Positions 37,234-45,450 of a stretch of 64,000 bases of DNA are shown here, piece by piece. Made by a program: the position numbers and the translations under genes. The DNA comes from Akkermansia muciniphila (GTDB lineage: Bacteria; Verrucomicrobiota; Verrucomicrobiia; Verrucomicrobiales; Akkermansiaceae). The DNA lies in contig NZ_CP156688.1 in assembly GCF_040616545.1 (NCBI RefSeq), positions 496,001 to 560,000 of the forward strand. The letters are read 5' to 3'. Within the stretch, counting starts at the first letter, position 1, and each line of letters opens with the position of its first letter. The notes below the pieces were generated by a model that was not told where the DNA came from, ran no database searches, and saw only the letters and a program-made list of their open reading frames with translations.

Positions 37234-38865
37234 CTACCACATCCGGGCTCGTCTGCCGCGCCCGCCGCCATTCCCGGGGCCGTGGAGCAGGCCGTGGGAC
37301 CACGCTTCCGCAAAGGTGCGCGCGGCATCCGCCGTATGGGAATGTCCGTCATGCACGGGGCTTTCCGCCACGGCGCCTCCCGCGCCGGGCGGCCTGGACC
37401 GGTACAGCTCCAGATGCTCCACCCCGCCCGGTTCCTCTTCCCCGCGCCCGTTGCGCATCCTTTCCTGGGTGCGGGCATGGAAGAAACTGCGCTCCAGCAG
37501 TTCCCGCAGCGTATTGATGCCGCGCCAGACGTCCGTTGTCCTGGGAACGACGCGCACATTAGCCAATCCAAGCCGCGCCATGCTCTCCACGTAGGAAACG
37601 CCGTGGGCATCCCTCCGCGCGGCATCATGCGGCAGCAGGTGGGCCGTCACCGTCACGCCGTGCCGCTTCTCCCATTCCCTCATTTTTTCCACGTAATGGG
37701 CCAGGGGCTCCTGGCTGGCGGCATAATGGTCCAGCCAGTGGAAACTGTCCCCCAGCACCTGCACCAGCCAAATGGCCGTATGGTCGCTCAGGCCCAGGTC
37801 CCACGCCGTGAAGGAGGGGGCCTCCGGGTCCGCCTGAAACTCCATCCCCACGCGCCCCTGTTCCCGGAGGGCCATGATGCGGCTGCCGTAAATGCTGCCT
37901 TCCTCCCCGGTAGCAAACGCCTCCTGCGGCGTTCCGGGGTACTCCTGCTTCATGGCGGCTCCCATCACGCGGGCCATCCGGGCGTACCATCTTTTCTGCC
38001 CCGCGTCCAGCACCACCCCGGTGTCCCGCTCCAGGGAAAGAAAATACTCGTCCAGCTCCCGGCTCCACCTGCCGCGCCCGGGCAAGGTGTATTCCTCCTG
38101 GTCAAACCAGCTGAAAAAGAAAAACCGGAAGTCCAGCGGAGACAATTCGCCCTTGCCCATGTTCTCCATGGCCTGGCGCGTCAGCTCGTAATTCACGCCG
38201 TACCGCCCCCCTTCATGGGTGCTCTCCTTCAGGATAAAACCGCCGGGGGGCACCGTATTGATCGCCCCCGTACGTATTTCCCTGGCACGCCACGGGGCAT
38301 GCACGGAAACGTGCGCCAGCTCGGAGACGTGCAGGAACTGCATGGTGCCCCCGCGCAGGTTCGTTCCCACGCGCACATCGCTTCCGTTGGCAAAAGCCAG
38401 ACGGGTGCGCGCAGACGTACAGGGACGCCATACCCCCTTTTTCTCCACGCCGGAGAGGCTTTTGATTCTCTCTCCCAGCCGGGCCAGGGCCACATCCATC
38501 GCGGAAGGATTGGGCGGAATGTAATCCAGATGGTCCCAGGCGAAGTGCAGCTTGGCAAGCTTCTGCTGGGCGTCCGGCAGGCTTTTGTCAATGATGCCGC
38601 AGTGGAAATTGGACCGGAACAGGCTCATATCCAGCATCAGCATGGCCACATACGTGGAAATGCCAAGCTGGCGGGCCTTCAGGATGTCGTTCCTGTACCA
38701 CAGCCGCTCATGAAGCCGCCGCTGCGCCCTGTTCAGGGAAAAACGCTGGAGCTGCCCCGCCTTGTTCTCAATCCAGTACAGGTGTTCCAGCCGCCAGAGC
38801 TGGCTGGACAACACGGACCGCCACGGCAGGCTCCAGGACTCCGTCAGATGATCAGAAGTTTCCAT
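37234..38865 (-). CDS. Phage terminase large subunit-like protein (ATPase plus nuclease)
   Basis: A 543-residue TerL-type protein, normally the motor that packages viral DNA. The ATPase shows a Walker-A-like ILKARQLGIST (61-71), as in many phage terminases, and MQFLHVSELAHV with a candidate catalytic E182. The linker has the TerL hallmark QEYPGTPQEAF (307-317). The RNase H-like nuclease keeps candidate metal ligands D356 (AWDLGLSDHT), D414 (LPHDAARR) and D513 (HTADAAR), so both activities look intact. It overlaps the end of the 1728-residue gene by 14 bp. No small terminase, portal or capsid gene is adjacent. Confidence 0.8.
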   Translation of the reverse strand: METSDHLTESWSLPWRSVLSSQLWRLEHLYWIENKAGQLQRFSLNRAQRRLHERLWYRNDILKARQLGISTYVAMLMLDMSLFRSNFHCGIIDKSLPDAQQKLAKLHFAWDHLDYIPPNPSAMDVALARLGERIKSLSGVEKKGVWRPCTSARTRLAFANGSDVRVGTNLRGGTMQFLHVSELAHVSVHAPWRAREIRTGAINTVPPGGFILKESTHEGGRYGVNYELTRQAMENMGKGELSPLDFRFFFFSWFDQEEYTLPGRGRWSRELDEYFLSLERDTGVVLDAGQKRWYARMARVMGAAMKQEYPGTPQEAFATGEEGSIYGSRIMALREQGRVGMEFQADPEAPSFTAWDLGLSDHTAIWLVQVLGDSFHWLDHYAASQEPLAHYVEKMREWEKRHGVTVTAHLLPHDAARRDAHGVSYVESMARLGLANVRVVPRTTDVWRGINTLRELLERSFFHARTQERMRNGRGEEEPGGVEHLELYRSRPPGAGGAVAESPVHDGHSHTADAARTFAEAWSHGLLHGPGNGGGRGRRARMW

Positions 38866-41800
38866 GTTCGTCCACCAGTTCCTTCAGCAGGGCGCCCTCG
38901 CCCGTCATTCCCCTCAGGGCCTCCGTCCCCTTGTCCAGGGGCAGGCGGTACGCCAGAGGATCGTTCAGCACGTGGGAGACAAAGCGCAGGGCCTGCACCA
39001 TGACGGGGTCAAGCAGGTCCAGCCTGCCGCGCAAATAACTTTCCCGCACGCCCAGCTCCTCATACAGCCGGATGACGTCCTCCATAAAGCATCCCACGGC
39101 CTCTTCCCTGTTCCACCAGAAGCGTTCCTGCGCATCCGCATCCCCCAGCGTTTCCAGAATACGGCCCAGGGACCGCGCCCGGCTCTCCCTCGCGGTCTCC
39201 GGAGTGGGCTCCTCTCCGGCCCCCGTAAAGCACTCCAGCGGAATATAGGAATCCCGTCCGGCACCCGCGGGCAGACCGTGCCTGTCCAGATAGGCGCCGT
39301 TCCACGCATGCACCACGTACGGAGCGCGCGCCTGCCGCACGGGGCTCTCCGGAATGCCCGGCATCAGGCGCACGGTATGCCCCGGATCGTCCGGGTCACG
39401 GTAAATCACACAATTGGCATACATCGCGCGCGCCTCCTCCGGATCAGGCAGGAAGGGGAGCATGCCGCCCCTCACTTCATCCTGCCGATGGTCCAGGACA
39501 TCAATCAGGGTGGCGGCTTCATCCAGGGGGACCTCCCGGCTCCACCACGCGGGCACCCCCTCGGGAACCGCGGCGGAATCAATGCGGTAAGTTTTGCCCC
39601 GCCAGACGATGCCGGACTCCGCTGCTTCCGGGCGGTCCGCAAAGTTCCGCCTCACCTCGTCCAGCGTCTCCACCGCACGAGCCACGTCCGGACGGCTGCT
39701 CCACGCGGCAGGGGCAGCCACGCCGCGCCTGACGGAAAACTCCTCCTCCACATAGGCGGGAGCATCCAGAACAGGCTCCGGGAGGGAGTCGCCCATGGCG
39801 GACAGGGAAACGCCTTTCGCCCGCAGAGTTCCGTGCCCGGCCCGGAGCGGGCGCTTCACCAAATGGAGGTACAGGCCGGGATGCTCCGAATCCGCACGCC
39901 ATGAATTCAACTGGGGAAACTCCCGGAGCGCCCGGGCCAGTTCCGCCATGCGGTGTTCCGCCAGCCGCTCCATCCGGCGCGTTGAGCCGCCGCCGTATCC
40001 ATCCAGCGCAGCCAGGGCGCGCACCAGGTCCTCCTTCACGTGGTCCGGGGCCGTAGATAAAAGCCTCCCGGTCATCAGGCTGTGGGCATACCTCTCCATC
40101 ATGGGGAGGCGCACCTCCGCGCCGCCGGCATTCCAGGCGCGTTCCGCCCGTATCCGGTCGTTCATCCCCACCGTTTCATGAAGCATGCCCATGAACTCGG
40201 CAGTCTCCGGCCCCTCCTTCAGCGTTTCCTTCAATTCCGCGGCACGGAGCACCAGCCCCTCAAGGGGTTCAGGAGCCCTGTCCGGACTCGCGGCCCCGTA
40301 ACGCGCCCATGAAGCTACCGTTTCCGGAACGGCGTCATGATCCAGATGCGCAAAGAAATACTCCTTGGAAAGCTGGGACAGTTCTTCAATCAGTTCCGTC
40401 TCTCCCGGCAGCTTCCGGCGCCGCGGCACGCGGCCCAGGCGCTTCAGCATCTCCCACGCGCCCTCCGGAGAGAGCTGGTCCGTGCGCATCAGCCGATCCC
40501 AGACAACCTCCGCCTTGTCCTCAATCAGGGCCAGGGGGTTGTCCGTGTTATGGAGGCGCAGGCGGTGCATCACCAGCCCCTTGGCCGTGGGAACGGGCAT
40601 ATTGTCCGCATCCACCCCCAGCCGCTGCGCCTCGCCCACATACTTGCCGTGAATGTCCATGCGCTCCTTCAGGGCATCCGGGCTCATCAGCGTTTCAGCG
40701 GCTACGCGTCCCCTGCCCGTCACCTCCAGACGGTCACCGGAGCCCACGGCCCCGCGCACGCCGTAACCGGCTTTCAGCATATCCGCCACCGCCATGGACG
40801 ACAGGCTGTCGTACAGGCAGGAGAGGCGTTCCCCATGCGCGTTTTCCAGCCCTGAAGTCAGCCGCAGGTAGTTGGTATCCCATTCCGGATGCCCGCTGCG
40901 GGCATGCCACTCCCAGCTCCGGATCAAATCCCTCTTGGCCATGCAGGCCGGGGAAAACATCATGGAGACATGGGCCATCAGGTCCGCCCCGGCGGCCTCC
41001 CGCGAAGGGTGCCAGTCCGACCACCTGCCGTTGGGGTATTTCACCCTCCACAGCCTTTCTCCTTCCCTGTTTCCGCGCGATGATTGGAACAGGCGCGGCG
41101 TCAGGCGCGACAGGTTCTCCACCGCCTTCTCCGTACCCGGATAGACGCGCGGCGCGGCCTGCGCCGGCCCGGCATCCAGACGTGAAGCATCCAGAACGGA
41201 GGCATACCGGGCCACATGCTCCGGCTCCACTTCCAGAAAGCGGGACAGCAGCCGGCCATAGCTCTCCACCGGCGTATAGCCGCGCCCCACATGAACATCA
41301 AACTCCTTCATGTTGGGAAGCACCTGGAACAAACTGTTCACGTCCGCCTGGGTTCCCCACACAAAACGGTTCATTTCCCGCAGTTCCGGACTCACCCCGT
41401 GGCGCTCCCGGTCCCCCAGGGAAGCCATCATGGAACTCATCCGGGACAGGGCGGACGGAAGCCCGTCCGGTCCGGAAGCCTGTTCCAGCAGCTCCGGAGC
41501 GCGCAGCAGGGCGCTGCCTTCCTCCAGCCAGCGGCGCGCCCTGGAGCAAGCCTCCCCGTTACGGCAGAACGACTCCCACAAGCGAAGGGCCACATGGGCG
41601 GACACCTCCTCATGGGAAGCGCCGTGCACCCGCTCCATCACCCCCTCATAAACATTCGCGCGCGTCCGGCGGTCCATCTCCACCGTAAGAGCATCCCAAT
41701 CCGTGCCGGAAAAGCCCACGCCGCGGCCGGCTTCCTCCGGATAAGCCAGCAGTAGCATCCTGTACGGACGGTAGGCGCGCCTCTTGAGCCTGTCTTCCAC

Positions 41801-44038
41801 AAACGCCCGGCGCAAGCCGTCCGCATGCACGTCATAATCCGCCGCATTCCTCAAACGCCACGGAATTTCCCGGCCATTCCTGTTCCGGGCCAGCCCCAGG
41901 TCTTCCTCCTCCATACGGCACAGGGCCTCATACCAGGAGGAAAGGGCCTCCTCCACGGAATGGCGGCCCTGCGTCCTCTTCATTTCCACGCCGGGCGCGG
42001 GTTCCGCCTCATAAACGCGCCGTCCGTCCGCCACGGCGGACTCTCCCACGCGCGGCAATCCGGCCCGCAGCAGCCATTTGGTCCTGGCCTCCGCATGTTC
42101 CGGGTGCGGAAAGAGTTTTTTCAACACCGCTTCCGACTCCGGAAAATCCCTCATCTTCCAGGGCTTCGTCCGGACGGGGGAAGGCATTTCCAGAAAATCC
42201 CGCACGTCCTGCTCCGTCCTTAAAAAGGGTTCTCCGGCCTCATCCAGCACACGGGACCATTCCATGGCCTTCCGGGAAATGTACAGGGACCCCCACAGGG
42301 GGGAATCACGCAGGGACTTTTGGAGCAGTTCCCCGGCGCGGCGTACGTCCTTCTCCCGCAGGATGCGGGCCGCCGCTTCATCCGGAATGCCGAACGCCTT
42401 CAGCGGCGCGCCATCACCCAGCAGCGTTCCGGCATGGCGGAAATGATGCAGGGAAGTCTTCCCGGCTCCGATCAGCAGGAAAGGCATCATCATGGCGGCC
42501 TCCCTCAACTGGTCGTCCAAGGATACCTGCCTTTCCTTCCAGCCTTCCCAATCCACGCCGGACTCCTTGCCTGTAGCCGCGCCCACGCCTTCCTGAACCA
42601 TCATGGGCGTCAGCTCCATCAGCTTGTTCTCCGCCGCCATCTTCACGGCATCAGCCGCCATGGCGCCCGTTCCGGAAAGAACCGCCCCCATGCTGCCGGA
42701 GGCGGATCTCACGGCCCGGAAGGCGCGCATTCCCTGCCCCACCATACGCTGGCCCAGCTTCGTCATCCCGAAGGAAAGCAGGGTATTTATCCCCCCGGAC
42801 GCCACGGCCCCGCCCATCTGCGCGTCAAACACGCCTTCCGGATTCATGCGGCGCGCATCCGCCATATGGCGCCCCGTTTCCCCGGCCATCAGAACGCCCA
42901 GCCCCGCCGGGCCGCCAAACGCCAGCGCCGTGGACGCGCCCTGCTGGGCCATGTCCACCAGCAGTTCCCGGAACCAGGGGGCATCCTTTCCTCCGCGCAG
43001 GGGGGCGAACTCCATCCTGGCAAAATTCCGCAGCTCCTCAAAGCTTCTGGAATACCTGTCCAGCGTCTCCTTTTCACTTCCTTCCGGGAGGGTCCAGGCC
43101 GCACCGTTCACGGCCAGCTGGACCACATTCTCCGCCATCTCCGCCGCGCCGCGCTTCAGCGCCCTTCCCAGGGCATCCCGGAAATCGGGGCGGGAGCGCA
43201 GGCTGGGAGCCATCATGCGGTATACCTTCTGCCGGTCCCCCTCCTCCAGCGACGCCAGGCAATCCACGGCACGCACCACATCCGGAACGCCGGCGGCTAC
43301 CTTCCGGTTCACTTGCACGGCGGGGAAATCTCCCGGGGCGGGAGCTTCATTGGCTACCAGCCCCTCCAGCCCCTTCCGGATCATTCCGGCGGCATCTTCC
43401 AGACGGTTCCTGTCATCCAGGGCATCGGACACGGCCCGGTTCTTCAATTGTTCCGCTACGGCCTGCAAATCCTCCGGCCAGGCGGAAACGGCCTCCCGGA
43501 GCCGTTCATCCGGAGCCTCCCTGTTTCCGGCCAGCGTCCGGTCATACTCCTCCTGATACAGTTCAAACAACGTTTCCCGCTGGGAAAGGCGCACCTGGTT
43601 GTGCATGGAGACGGCCACAAACAACTCGTCATCAGACTTGCCGGACGCGCCGTACTGCCGCGCCACCTGCTCCCGGATCCCCTTCCAGTCCCGCCGGATG
43701 CGTTCACGGGGAATCTCCCCTGAATCCGCCACCCAGGACTGCATCACGCACGCGGCCACCCGCTCCCGGTCAGCCGTTCCCGCCGGATACACGGCTTCCG
43801 CCTTGCGCCTCACTTCCAGGGGAATCGTCATCACGTCCCCCGTCAGCACGCTGTTCCAGTATTCTTCACGCGCCGCCGCCTCACGCTCCGGGCTCTCCCG
43901 CGTGCCGTAAGCTTCTCCGGAGGGCCCGGTCACTGCCGGAGCGGAACTTTCCTCCCTGTGCACGGGAGACCTTTCCGGCGCTCCATCTTCCAGCGGCAGG
44001 GTTCCTGCCTTTTCCCGATTCATCTCATTTTCCATCAT
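38852..44038 (-). CDS. Giant 1728-residue phage-like protein, possible ejection protein
   Basis: No family recognised with confidence. It is a soluble-looking, charged and helical protein with small-residue-rich hydrophobic segments around residues 370-540 (STALAFGGPAGLGVLMAGE, MMMPFLLIGAG). That pattern, the size and the place between a coiled-coil protein and a terminase resemble phage internal virion (gp16-like) or large polyvalent proteins. The start is TAATG-overlapped with the upstream gene and the end overlaps the terminase-like gene, so all three are co-translated. Codon use and GC match the host, which argues against very recent arrival. Confidence 0.6.
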   Translation of the reverse strand: MMENEMNREKAGTLPLEDGAPERSPVHREESSAPAVTGPSGEAYGTRESPEREAAAREEYWNSVLTGDVMTIPLEVRRKAEAVYPAGTADRERVAACVMQSWVADSGEIPRERIRRDWKGIREQVARQYGASGKSDDELFVAVSMHNQVRLSQRETLFELYQEEYDRTLAGNREAPDERLREAVSAWPEDLQAVAEQLKNRAVSDALDDRNRLEDAAGMIRKGLEGLVANEAPAPGDFPAVQVNRKVAAGVPDVVRAVDCLASLEEGDRQKVYRMMAPSLRSRPDFRDALGRALKRGAAEMAENVVQLAVNGAAWTLPEGSEKETLDRYSRSFEELRNFARMEFAPLRGGKDAPWFRELLVDMAQQGASTALAFGGPAGLGVLMAGETGRHMADARRMNPEGVFDAQMGGAVASGGINTLLSFGMTKLGQRMVGQGMRAFRAVRSASGSMGAVLSGTGAMAADAVKMAAENKLMELTPMMVQEGVGAATGKESGVDWEGWKERQVSLDDQLREAAMMMPFLLIGAGKTSLHHFRHAGTLLGDGAPLKAFGIPDEAAARILREKDVRRAGELLQKSLRDSPLWGSLYISRKAMEWSRVLDEAGEPFLRTEQDVRDFLEMPSPVRTKPWKMRDFPESEAVLKKLFPHPEHAEARTKWLLRAGLPRVGESAVADGRRVYEAEPAPGVEMKRTQGRHSVEEALSSWYEALCRMEEEDLGLARNRNGREIPWRLRNAADYDVHADGLRRAFVEDRLKRRAYRPYRMLLLAYPEEAGRGVGFSGTDWDALTVEMDRRTRANVYEGVMERVHGASHEEVSAHVALRLWESFCRNGEACSRARRWLEEGSALLRAPELLEQASGPDGLPSALSRMSSMMASLGDRERHGVSPELREMNRFVWGTQADVNSLFQVLPNMKEFDVHVGRGYTPVESYGRLLSRFLEVEPEHVARYASVLDASRLDAGPAQAAPRVYPGTEKAVENLSRLTPRLFQSSRGNREGERLWRVKYPNGRWSDWHPSREAAGADLMAHVSMMFSPACMAKRDLIRSWEWHARSGHPEWDTNYLRLTSGLENAHGERLSCLYDSLSSMAVADMLKAGYGVRGAVGSGDRLEVTGRGRVAAETLMSPDALKERMDIHGKYVGEAQRLGVDADNMPVPTAKGLVMHRLRLHNTDNPLALIEDKAEVVWDRLMRTDQLSPEGAWEMLKRLGRVPRRRKLPGETELIEELSQLSKEYFFAHLDHDAVPETVASWARYGAASPDRAPEPLEGLVLRAAELKETLKEGPETAEFMGMLHETVGMNDRIRAERAWNAGGAEVRLPMMERYAHSLMTGRLLSTAPDHVKEDLVRALAALDGYGGGSTRRMERLAEHRMAELARALREFPQLNSWRADSEHPGLYLHLVKRPLRAGHGTLRAKGVSLSAMGDSLPEPVLDAPAYVEEEFSVRRGVAAPAAWSSRPDVARAVETLDEVRRNFADRPEAAESGIVWRGKTYRIDSAAVPEGVPAWWSREVPLDEAATLIDVLDHRQDEVRGGMLPFLPDPEEARAMYANCVIYRDPDDPGHTVRLMPGIPESPVRQARAPYVVHAWNGAYLDRHGLPAGAGRDSYIPLECFTGAGEEPTPETARESRARSLGRILETLGDADAQERFWWNREEAVGCFMEDVIRLYEELGVRESYLRGRLDLLDPVMVQALRFVSHVLNDPLAYRLPLDKGTEALRGMTGEGALLKELVDEHGNF

Positions 44039-45336
44039 TACTTGCCTTCCTTTCCCTTGTTCATATCCCTGAATCCCACCCAGCCCTCATCCTGAAGCCG
44101 GTTTTCCTTTTCAAAAACTTTCTCAAGCTCCGCCTCAGGCTGCTGCGGGGCTCTTCTGACCGCCTCCATCAATTCCATCTGGACGCGCTTCCATTCCTCC
44201 ACGGCGCGCGCGTCCTCCGATGGCCCCCAGGCTCCGCTGCGGAACAGGGAGGACAAGCGGCGGGAAGCCGCGCGGCGCGTCTCCTGCGGAACCTGCATCA
44301 TCACCTCCCGCCTCCGGAGGAGCCTTTCCACCTGCGGAGCAGGCAGCCCGGAAGTAGCCACTTCAATCATGGCGTCCGCATCCCCCTCCCCACCGCAATC
44401 CTCATCAACCAGGCAGGTCATGCGGCACAACAGCAAATCGTCCTCCGGTACGCTGACGCCGGAAAACTCCGCCTCCCGCCTCCGGTCCCGGGACTCCGTA
44501 TAACGCCTCAATTGCCCGGAACTGATCAAGCCGTACTTTTCCGCATTCGCCAGCCCTTCATCCCGGAGCAGGCCTCCCCCGGACACCGTGCGCGCCACGG
44601 ATTCCGCATAACGCCGCTTCAGCTCTCCATACGCCGTAACGGCCTCCTGCGCCACTTTCCTTTCCTCCGGGGTCTGCGGCGGTTCCCCGCCACCGGAAAC
44701 AAGACGAACCGCCCGGACCGGATCGCGCCGCACCTCCTGCACCGCCTGGTTCAGGGCCACGCGGCTGCGGGCATCCTCCACCATGCGGGCGGCCTCCTCC
44801 CCGGTCACAAAAACGCCGCGGCCTTCCTCAATCCTGCGTTCAGCCAGTCCGGCCTCTCCCTGCTCCACGGCGTATTCCACCCCTCCGGTCCAGGCCCGCC
44901 GCGCTTCCTCCAACTGCCCCAGGCGGGACATCTTCTGCAAATAAATGCTTCCGGCAGACTCCAGATTCTCCCTCGCCAGCTCCACCCTCTCCCGTACCGG
45001 AGCGGACATCCTGCCGGGCAGATAGGAGGGAAGCCGCTCCGCGAGCGCCTTTTTCCATCTTTCCTGAACGTGCTCCGGCTCCCCGCCGGCCTCCAATTCC
45101 CTCATCACGTCCTGTTCAAAACGGTACAGGCCGTCGCGGGCCTCCGCCCACTGTCCGGCGTCCCTCACCTCCTGCATCTCCTTCACGGCGGTTCCCGCCG
45201 TTCCGGCCAGTTCCATCACGCCCGCAGCCAGGTTCCGCACTCCGGCGGCCTGCGCTTCAAACGCGTTCAACGGAACCACGCCGGACAAATCCGGCGCCAC
45301 ATGCAGCATCCCAAAATCCTGTATTCGTATAGCCAT
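44038..45336 (-). CDS. Phage-like coiled-coil protein, possible internal virion protein
   Basis: A 432-residue protein, first gene of the phage-like cassette. I prefer ATG 45336 (MAIRIQDFGMLHVAPDLSG) to one 48 bp upstream. The short basic N-terminus, a helical region with repeated Ala/Gly (AAGVRNLAAGVMELAGTAGTA) and long Glu/Arg-rich coiled coil are the layout I know from phage internal virion and DNA-transfer proteins. There is no signal peptide or transmembrane helix. Function is inferred from neighbours only. Confidence 0.5.
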   Translation of the reverse strand: MAIRIQDFGMLHVAPDLSGVVPLNAFEAQAAGVRNLAAGVMELAGTAGTAVKEMQEVRDAGQWAEARDGLYRFEQDVMRELEAGGEPEHVQERWKKALAERLPSYLPGRMSAPVRERVELARENLESAGSIYLQKMSRLGQLEEARRAWTGGVEYAVEQGEAGLAERRIEEGRGVFVTGEEAARMVEDARSRVALNQAVQEVRRDPVRAVRLVSGGGEPPQTPEERKVAQEAVTAYGELKRRYAESVARTVSGGGLLRDEGLANAEKYGLISSGQLRRYTESRDRRREAEFSGVSVPEDDLLLCRMTCLVDEDCGGEGDADAMIEVATSGLPAPQVERLLRRREVMMQVPQETRRAASRRLSSLFRSGAWGPSEDARAVEEWKRVQMELMEAVRRAPQQPEAELEKVFEKENRLQDEGWVGFRDMNKGKEGK

Positions 45337-45450
45337 CTTTAATGGCCTCCAAGCTAGGAAGGGGACGGAAGGCCCGGCATCCATTCCAAACCGTTACCGT
45401 CCGGCACTTGCCTCTTGCCAAAACCGGACCGTTCCAACACAATCAGCCCC

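Follow-up and report, generated by a model that had tools for sequence, protein, structure and literature searches.

Particle genes of a T7-like podovirus dispersed over five loci in Akkermansia: a putative gene transfer agent

Known gene transfer agents and the five Akkermansia loci

Among recognised gene transfer agents (GTAs), RcGTA of Rhodobacter is siphovirus-like, with most of its structural genes in one main cluster. According to the consulted text of PMC9662315, a GTA is a tailed-phage-derived particle holding mostly random host DNA, which it delivers to other cells; its genome is wholly fixed within the chromosome of the host, frequently at more than one locus, its head is too small for all of the GTA genes, and it is inherited vertically, co-diversifying with its host. 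Few GTA-like elements are known outside the Alphaproteobacteria, and that of Faecalibacterium prausnitzii, FpGTA, has been presented as a first both for the human gut microbiome and for podovirus-like morphology (consulted text of PMC12946183). Here, we analysed a 64,000-base stretch of the Akkermansia muciniphila chromosome (hereafter the window; bases 496001–560000 of a complete 3,055,113-base contig), in which a cassette of three genes at 0.53 Mb encodes a large terminase (TerL) and two ejection-type proteins, and found it to be one of five loci carrying parts of a dispersed particle. We put the probability at roughly three in four that these loci are a domesticated T7-like podovirus that constitutes a putative GTA.

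The cassette (locus I) comprises three overlapping minus-strand genes, coding for TerL, the packaging ATPase and nuclease (37234–38865, 543 amino acids, aa), a giant ejection-type, gp16-like protein (38852–44038, 1728 aa) and CC, a gp15-like ejection (internal core) protein (44038–45336, 432 aa). The CC reading frame is open to 45384, giving 448 aa as the full frame and 432 aa from the start at 45336 used by its relatives. All three frames are intact, in the overlapping arrangement described by an earlier note made from the sequence of the window. The note had also called the cassette an orphan without portal or capsid, which holds for the cassette neighbourhood but not for the genome, where both genes, as the note had proposed checking, are found at loci II and III. 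A lone terminase cassette was ruled out by these portal and capsid genes.

Locus II (2.404–2.408 Mb) holds tail-tube A (phrog_394, E 3e-42), a 71-aa protein, a solo portal (2405218–2406852; phrog_332, E 6e-87), a 93-aa protein and a scaffold (phrog_3742, E 2e-27), and a second portal copy of the genome lies in a prophage. The major capsid (locus III, ~1.950 Mb; phrog_3437, E 6e-57) and tail-tube B (locus IV, 2753532–2755997, 2.754 Mb; phrog_376, E 3e-132) each stand apart, and locus V (~2.071 Mb) carries a gp14-like internal protein (phrog_418, E 2e-5). Among the matches listed, annotated phage capsids are 33–38% identical to the capsid and connectors 26–28% identical to the portal. By eye, the portal cluster lies ~1 kb from an apparent CRISPR array with Cas4-, Cas1- and Cas2-like genes (G000:C1 2400577–2403270, G000 being the window genome).

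The loci resemble a T7-type podovirus in having portal, scaffold, capsid, tail-tube A and B, three internal core or ejection-type proteins and TerL, for which the T7 gene names are gp8, gp9, gp10, gp11, gp12, gp14, gp15, gp16 and gp19. They differ in forming no single phage genome, and no gene for RNA polymerase, replication, lysis or fibres was noticed at them, genome-wide searches for such genes not having been made. With RcGTA and other recognised GTAs, they share tailed-phage-derived proteins, several fixed loci and vertical inheritance (consulted text of PMC9662315), whereas in Akkermansia the structural genes themselves are scattered, and are T7-like. The closest known system, going by the consulted text of PMC12946183, is FpGTA, which likewise comes from a gut bacterium and has podovirus-like proteins; its genes, TerL, portal, scaffold and capsid among them, lie at more than one place. 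The two operons of FpGTA, ~125 kb from each other in one complete genome, include tail fibre and lysis genes and possibly a terminase small subunit, and its DNA-holding particles have been observed, whereas the Akkermansia element, from another phylum, has five loci, three of them with a single particle gene, a gp14/15/16-like set, and is known from genes alone.

Three of the six features in the GTA definition are found at the Akkermansia loci, the first being caudoviricete-like proteins, with head, connector, tail and terminase families (by similarity) across the five loci. The second is chromosomal fixation at multiple loci (five in G000, and solo portal, capsid and tail-tube B in 51 of 59 genomes of the survey below), and the third is vertical inheritance with co-diversification (measured against six host genes, with the neighbours of loci I, III and IV kept as far as genome G011). 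A GTA is the best explanation because head, connector, packaging motor and ejection-type proteins have been kept, while neither a family scan (locus I) nor a comparison with prophage proteins plus inspection by eye (loci II–V) turned up a recognisable integrase or replication gene. The earlier note had entertained a domesticated device for DNA packaging or transfer, and this idea fits the intact genes, purifying selection, genus-wide retention and co-divergence with host genes described below.

Terminase, ejection-type proteins and their prophage relatives

TerL matches the terminase family phrog_2 (E 1.2e-16; its Pfam match is below the cut-off) as well as 423 phage records, the best at ~36% identity. 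Across an alignment of 31 TerL sequences (29 of the cassette class and two from prophages), the Walker-A-like KARQLGxST, H-x-S-E and EST motifs are invariant together with D356, D361, D414 and D513, bearing out the earlier note's account of a terminase with its Walker-A-like motif and nuclease aspartates intact; the invariant set covers ATPase and nuclease positions. The cassette TerLs form one clade (support 100/99), apart from prophage and phage TerLs, and the second TerL class of the genus, 39–51% identical to cassette TerL, belongs to prophages, with one copy in the window genome at 2.79 Mb. A search of IMG/VR viral contigs with TerL gave two stretches that fit the pattern, neither of them a relative, and no terminase small subunit was seen beside cassette TerL.

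By position and homology, CC is a predicted gp15-like protein and the giant a predicted gp16-like protein. The giant has no PHROG or Pfam family match and CC none of weight, phage records searched with the giant gave no match, the giant profile A2 offered no sufficiently conserved stretch for viral contigs, and PDB sequence searches with A4, A2 (the giant) and A3 (CC) gave nothing credible. Profiles made from the cassette proteins alone nevertheless find adjacent CC–giant pairs in four more, prophage-like elements (G006, G007:C116, G371 and G291), with E-values of 1.9e-30 to 3.8e-35 for the giant profile, the giants being 2323–3422 aa and lying beside CC homologues, and 1.3e-5 to 3e-12 for the CC profile. 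The prophage at G007:C39 has the order terminase small subunit (TerS), TerL, portal, scaffold-type protein, internal virion protein, CC homologue, 2928-aa protein and capsid, with small genes between, and the match of the giant profile to its giant protein was not significant.

The AlphaFold model of CC (pLDDT 81) is nearly all helix, and six of the 13 top rows of its structure comparison are phage core or ejection proteins, of which those from T7 cover almost the whole model. These rows comprise the T7 core (9jyy_G, Z 8.0, r.m.s.d. 13.4 over 213 residues), the A4 pre-ejectosome (9k2v_A, Z 7.6, 7.1 over 139), 7eyb_A (Z 7.4, 13.7 over 222), DEV gp72 (9bgo_A, Z 6.7, 4.8 over 116), PhiM1 (8vb2_E, Z 6.4, 7.9 over 232) and 7k5c_A (Z 5.9, 38.9 over 229), in a Z range that helical look-alikes share. 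Foldseek alone gave no E-value below 0.001 with the CC model, and the structure comparison (Z ≤ 8.0) supports a gp15-like fold for CC, short of proof. A fold comparison of 622 residues near the N-terminus of the giant returned nothing specific, with transporter-like helical rows. The gp15–gp16–gp19 resemblance put forward in the earlier note is upheld, in that CC and the giant have homologues lying next to each other in prophage-like elements of other genomes and the CC model resembles phage ejectosome proteins.

Prophages in G006 and G007 hold the same parts in one run (TerL, 71-aa-like protein, portal, 93-aa-like protein, scaffold, capsid, tail tubes, CC and giant, with further genes between; the 71-aa likeness was judged by eye), so that the dispersed loci have the look of fragments of a single module of this kind. 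The G006 prophage capsid is up to 71% identical to the dispersed capsid. The podovirus-type prophages of the genus (G006, G007 and that of the window genome at 2.79 Mb) have the same protein families as the loci, with the CC–giant pair in G006 and G007, but their genes are clustered, G007:C39 has a terminase small subunit, and they fall outside the cassette clade in the TerL tree. When prophage proteins were compared with stretches fetched for loci I–IV, they matched the particle genes and a few single others, not every flanking frame being identified; against the locus V stretches, they gave nothing at E 1e-4 in a comparison insensitive enough to miss even the gp14-like gene.

Several further observations concern these relatives. 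The 71-aa protein (ending ..TLG) and the 93-aa protein (PLDAMRRDA) are common to prophages and dispersed loci and resemble conserved components of the head or connector in this group of phages; the prophage version of 97 aa has no PHROG match. The podovirus-type prophage of the window genome (G000:C1 2785000–2804999) carries portal, capsid, TerL (~50% identical to cassette TerL), tail-tube B and an amidase-like gene, with no giant protein in the 20 kb read. In other genera of the family (G291:C12 and G371:C9), CC–giant pairs lie beside genes reading like replication or excision genes, with a terminase small subunit nearby in G291:C12; no TerL match was found in the stretches read and no portal or capsid was noticed by eye, and these elements are possibly satellites or another split element. 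Finally, G057:C1 13000–30000, probably another prophage or a remnant, holds a second tail-tube B, a gp14-like gene and a frame resembling the 2928-aa protein of G007:C39.

Distribution, selection and co-divergence across the genus

The survey covered 76 species-level Akkermansia genomes, the window genome included, with G009 scored as the same species as the latter. Cassette-class TerL, taken as at least 59% identity plus one fragment, is present in 58 genomes (an 83-residue TerL in G042, 71% identical, was tallied as cassette and a 45% fragment in G045 as prophage type), and the giant and CC are present in 59 each. Wherever the contig permits, the cassette genes adjoin in the same order by coordinates; the earlier note had proposed a look at synteny in many Akkermansia genomes, and CC and the giant are kept in 59 of the 76.

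The portal family phrog_332 is present in 63 of the 76 genomes. We called a gene solo if none of the other phage types searched for (prophage-class TerL, portal, capsid or tail-tube B) lay within 25 kb on its contig, an assignment that a contig end in a broken assembly can mimic, and tallied one piece per reading frame for the giant and tail-tube B, omitting the CC match of the G007:C39 prophage. By this tally, the 59 genomes with CC and giant include 56 with a solo portal, 55 with a solo capsid, 57 with a solo tail-tube B and 51 with all three. No solo portal, capsid or tail-tube B is found in 14 of the 17 genomes lacking CC and giant, three of which (G064, G066 and G070) have clustered copies; the other three are G024 (79% complete), with all three solo genes, and G002 and G074, with a solo portal only. 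The gp14-like family, to which the solo test was not applied, gives one or more matches in 52 of the 59 cassette genomes (E up to 0.01, prophage copies counted) and none in G062–G075. Genomes in which no clustered copy of the searched families was found (e.g. G005, whose cassette lies at 462979–471123, G001 and G010) still hold portal, capsid, scaffold and tail genes. Residual linkage, which speaks for the proposed dispersed particle, persists in individual species: tail-tube B comes immediately behind TerL in G038, the distance to TerL is 1.4 kb for the gp14-like gene of G057 and ~7 kb for the capsid of G026, and in G033 ~12 kb separate the capsid from the tail-tube A/portal cluster.

The scattering of the genes would suit the remains of an ancient prophage that has fragmented and is decaying, as would the eight of 59 cassette genomes in which one or more of the three solo parts searched for was not found, among which G033 fails for portal and capsid because these are linked to each other and others are partly incomplete assemblies. 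Against such decay, retention extends to 59 of 76 genomes, the TerL and giant frames are free of stops in all matched genomes, and the ratio of nonsynonymous to synonymous substitution rates (dN/dS) is well below 1 at all loci, making debris a very remote prospect. Presence does not show the patchiness that the earlier note named, with frequent frameshifts, as a mark of decaying debris; seven rows of the CC search show stop codons, beginning at query residues 4–14, and from the start used by relatives these frames are open.

Purifying selection acts on the cassette genes, which the earlier note had suggested examining through dN/dS: between the window genome and eight other species, dN/dS is 0.06–0.08 for TerL, 0.14–0.21 for the giant and 0.13–0.21 for CC. 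Over 11 genes at the five loci it is 0.025–0.21 (four to five species comparisons each), and lowest for capsid (0.025–0.037) and portal (0.031–0.066). Host neighbours range from 0 (M23 and rpsO) to 0.25 (acetyltransferase), with truA at 0.13–0.19 and L,D-transpeptidase at 0.12–0.20; HlyD gave 0.39, a single value from a partial alignment. The contrast between CC and giant, which diverge fast (22–37% identical to distant species), and the slow capsid and portal is as expected for parts that meet other molecules, and would also suit a dispersed, host-retained particle with another job, such as protein delivery, killing, or interference, its TerL, portal and capsid acting as poisons on infecting podoviruses akin to the genus prophages. 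Interference is made plausible by the resemblance of the particle parts to prophage parts, as with the capsid of G006. Killing or a decoy role, however, needs no active packaging motor together with head, connector and ejectosome, and the catalytic positions of TerL are kept, at a dN/dS of ~0.07, with capsid and portal the most constrained of all, so we consider another job unlikely, while giving it some weight.

The dispersed genes have also diverged together. For nine genes over the five loci (8–12 genomes; the 71-aa and 93-aa proteins left out, and six of the 36 pairs lying within one locus), Spearman coefficients are 0.71–0.96, with at most 2 of 999 permutations as high for all 36 pairs. 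Five particle genes compared with six host genes gave 0.82–0.97 (at most 12 of 499 permutations as high; 6–11 genomes), a comparison limited to the A. muciniphila group and G011. Composition is not discriminating, with G+C contents of 57–65% for particle genes, 54–65% for host genes and 57–63% for prophage genes.

The flanks of the cassette in the window are ordinary, as the earlier note had it: a family scan of eight proteins over both sides gave TetR, rpsO, an acetyltransferase and L,D-transpeptidase on one flank and truA, a nadD-like gene, M23 and a fucosidase on the other, all host-like, and by eye the genes flanking loci III, IV and V look like those of the host. No full prophage adjoins the cassette in the 18 fetched stretches of 17–20 kb, an arrangement that the earlier note had said would count against its reading. 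Cassette flanks differ between distant species groups, which could be taken, alongside the related prophages with the same gene families in many genomes, as a sign of a split prophage or phage satellite for whose spread a resident phage provides help. Host neighbours common to G000, G005 (A. muciniphila group) and the distant G011 are nonetheless kept at loci I, III and IV, the genes co-diverge with host genes, and the family scan of locus I and the prophage comparison and reading by eye of the other loci revealed no recognisable integrase or replication gene. A self-sufficient prophage would have structural, integration and replication genes in one cluster, whereas here the structural genes are split over five loci, which span at least ~1.6 Mb of chromosome if covered together and so could not be packed as one genome. 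The helper phage that the earlier note had envisaged for a satellite is not needed either, as the genome has its own conserved portal, capsid, scaffold and tail genes, and we find a satellite or split prophage quite improbable.

Upstream elements, proposed mechanism and biological meaning

A candidate regulatory element lies on the minus strand at 45378–45395, 42–59 bases 5' of the CC start, and similar stretches precede other particle genes, a likeness that mixed motif and sharing tests leave as suggestive; the element has one match in the 64-kb window at two or fewer mismatches. The motif search covered the upstream regions of five genes, with real data and shuffles given equal effort, widths of 14 and 18, and p71 excluded. 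In the three-genome set G000, G057 and G011, the motif score beats 19 of 19 shuffles at both widths, a result inflated because the set includes orthologues alike by descent. Plausible sites start 50–59 bases 5' of CC and gp14-like, and ~50–62 bases 5' of tail-tube B in two of the three genomes. A sharing test avoids inflation by descent because it compares different loci within a genome against those between genomes; its input was the genome-assignable, non-prophage sequences among 52 CC and 25 gp14-like sequences, with the G000 CC upstream region taken from G009. Within-genome likeness exceeded between-genome likeness for CC/gp14-like (1 of 2000 permutations as high, n = 18), gp14-like/tail-tube B (6 of 2000, n = 11), CC/tail-tube A (7 of 2000, n = 14) and gp14-like/tail-tube A (8 of 2000, n = 11), where 14 of the 15 pairs were tested (TtpA and p71 share one intergenic region) and p is uncorrected for the 14 tests. 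An identical 17-base stretch occurs 5' of CC and gp14-like in G022 and in G016, and in 167 kb of the window genome, 13 bases 5' of tail-tube B match exactly only there and with one mismatch only 5' of gp14-like. A sigma-70 promoter scan of the cassette did no better than shuffles. This mixed evidence is suggestive of an upstream element shared across loci, and a common regulator is plausible.

From the gene content, we infer particle formation, packaging of random host DNA and its delivery. A regulator would switch on the loci under some condition, in part of the population; scaffold, portal and capsid would assemble a head, which TerL would fill with pieces of host chromosome; the host cells would lyse, and the gp14/15/16-like proteins would make an envelope channel injecting the DNA into another cell. 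In the mouse gut, Verrucomicrobia contigs were 3.5 times over-represented among contigs with a packaged-DNA pattern in one mouse (consulted text of PMC7667829), a figure that hints, independently and at phylum level, at packaging.

Several points weigh against a GTA. The mouse-gut figure, as given in the consulted text of PMC7667829, names no genus and no mechanism and mixes packaging types, and the main text of a 2026 study of packaged DNA in the human gut (PMC12946183) contains neither Akkermansia nor Verrucomicrobi. No particle, packaged DNA or transfer has been observed. None of the loci showed a terminase small subunit, tail fibre or lysis gene, no genome-wide search having been made for these. 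The low identity of CC and giant to distant species means that their function could have drifted. In trees of the genomes with fetched loci (33 rows for TerL, and 22 each for portal and capsid), the domesticated portals do not resolve as one clade (two changes; 6% of bootstrap trees), and the capsids are one clade with modest support (93/95). For the upstream motif in single genomes, shuffles reach the score in 2 and 1 of 19 cases (G000, widths 14 and 18), 17 and 0 (G057) and 13 and 8 (G011), and 10 of the 14 upstream pairs have no clear effect, with capsid/p71 weak (56 of 2000) and nine showing nothing.

Akkermansia is a mucus specialist and a proposed live biotherapeutic. The fullest form of our proposal, for which we see the odds as even, is that most Akkermansia species hold a working GTA, the first in Verrucomicrobiota, whose five T7-like-phage-derived loci would form one regulon through a shared, species-specific upstream element co-evolving with its regulator, and whose ejectosome would inject chromosomal DNA into neighbours in gut mucus. 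We found no report of such an element, or of a GTA, in Akkermansia or its phylum in a search of titles and abstracts, with most subscription journals and all preprints outside its reach. If the proposal is true, the dispersed GTA would be a built-in route of gene exchange across most of Akkermansia, and one that escapes prophage finders, as no locus looks like a prophage. The dispersed particle makes it testable how a multi-protein particle keeps working after its genes separate, and the finding suggests looking for scattered solo portals and capsids in other genera.

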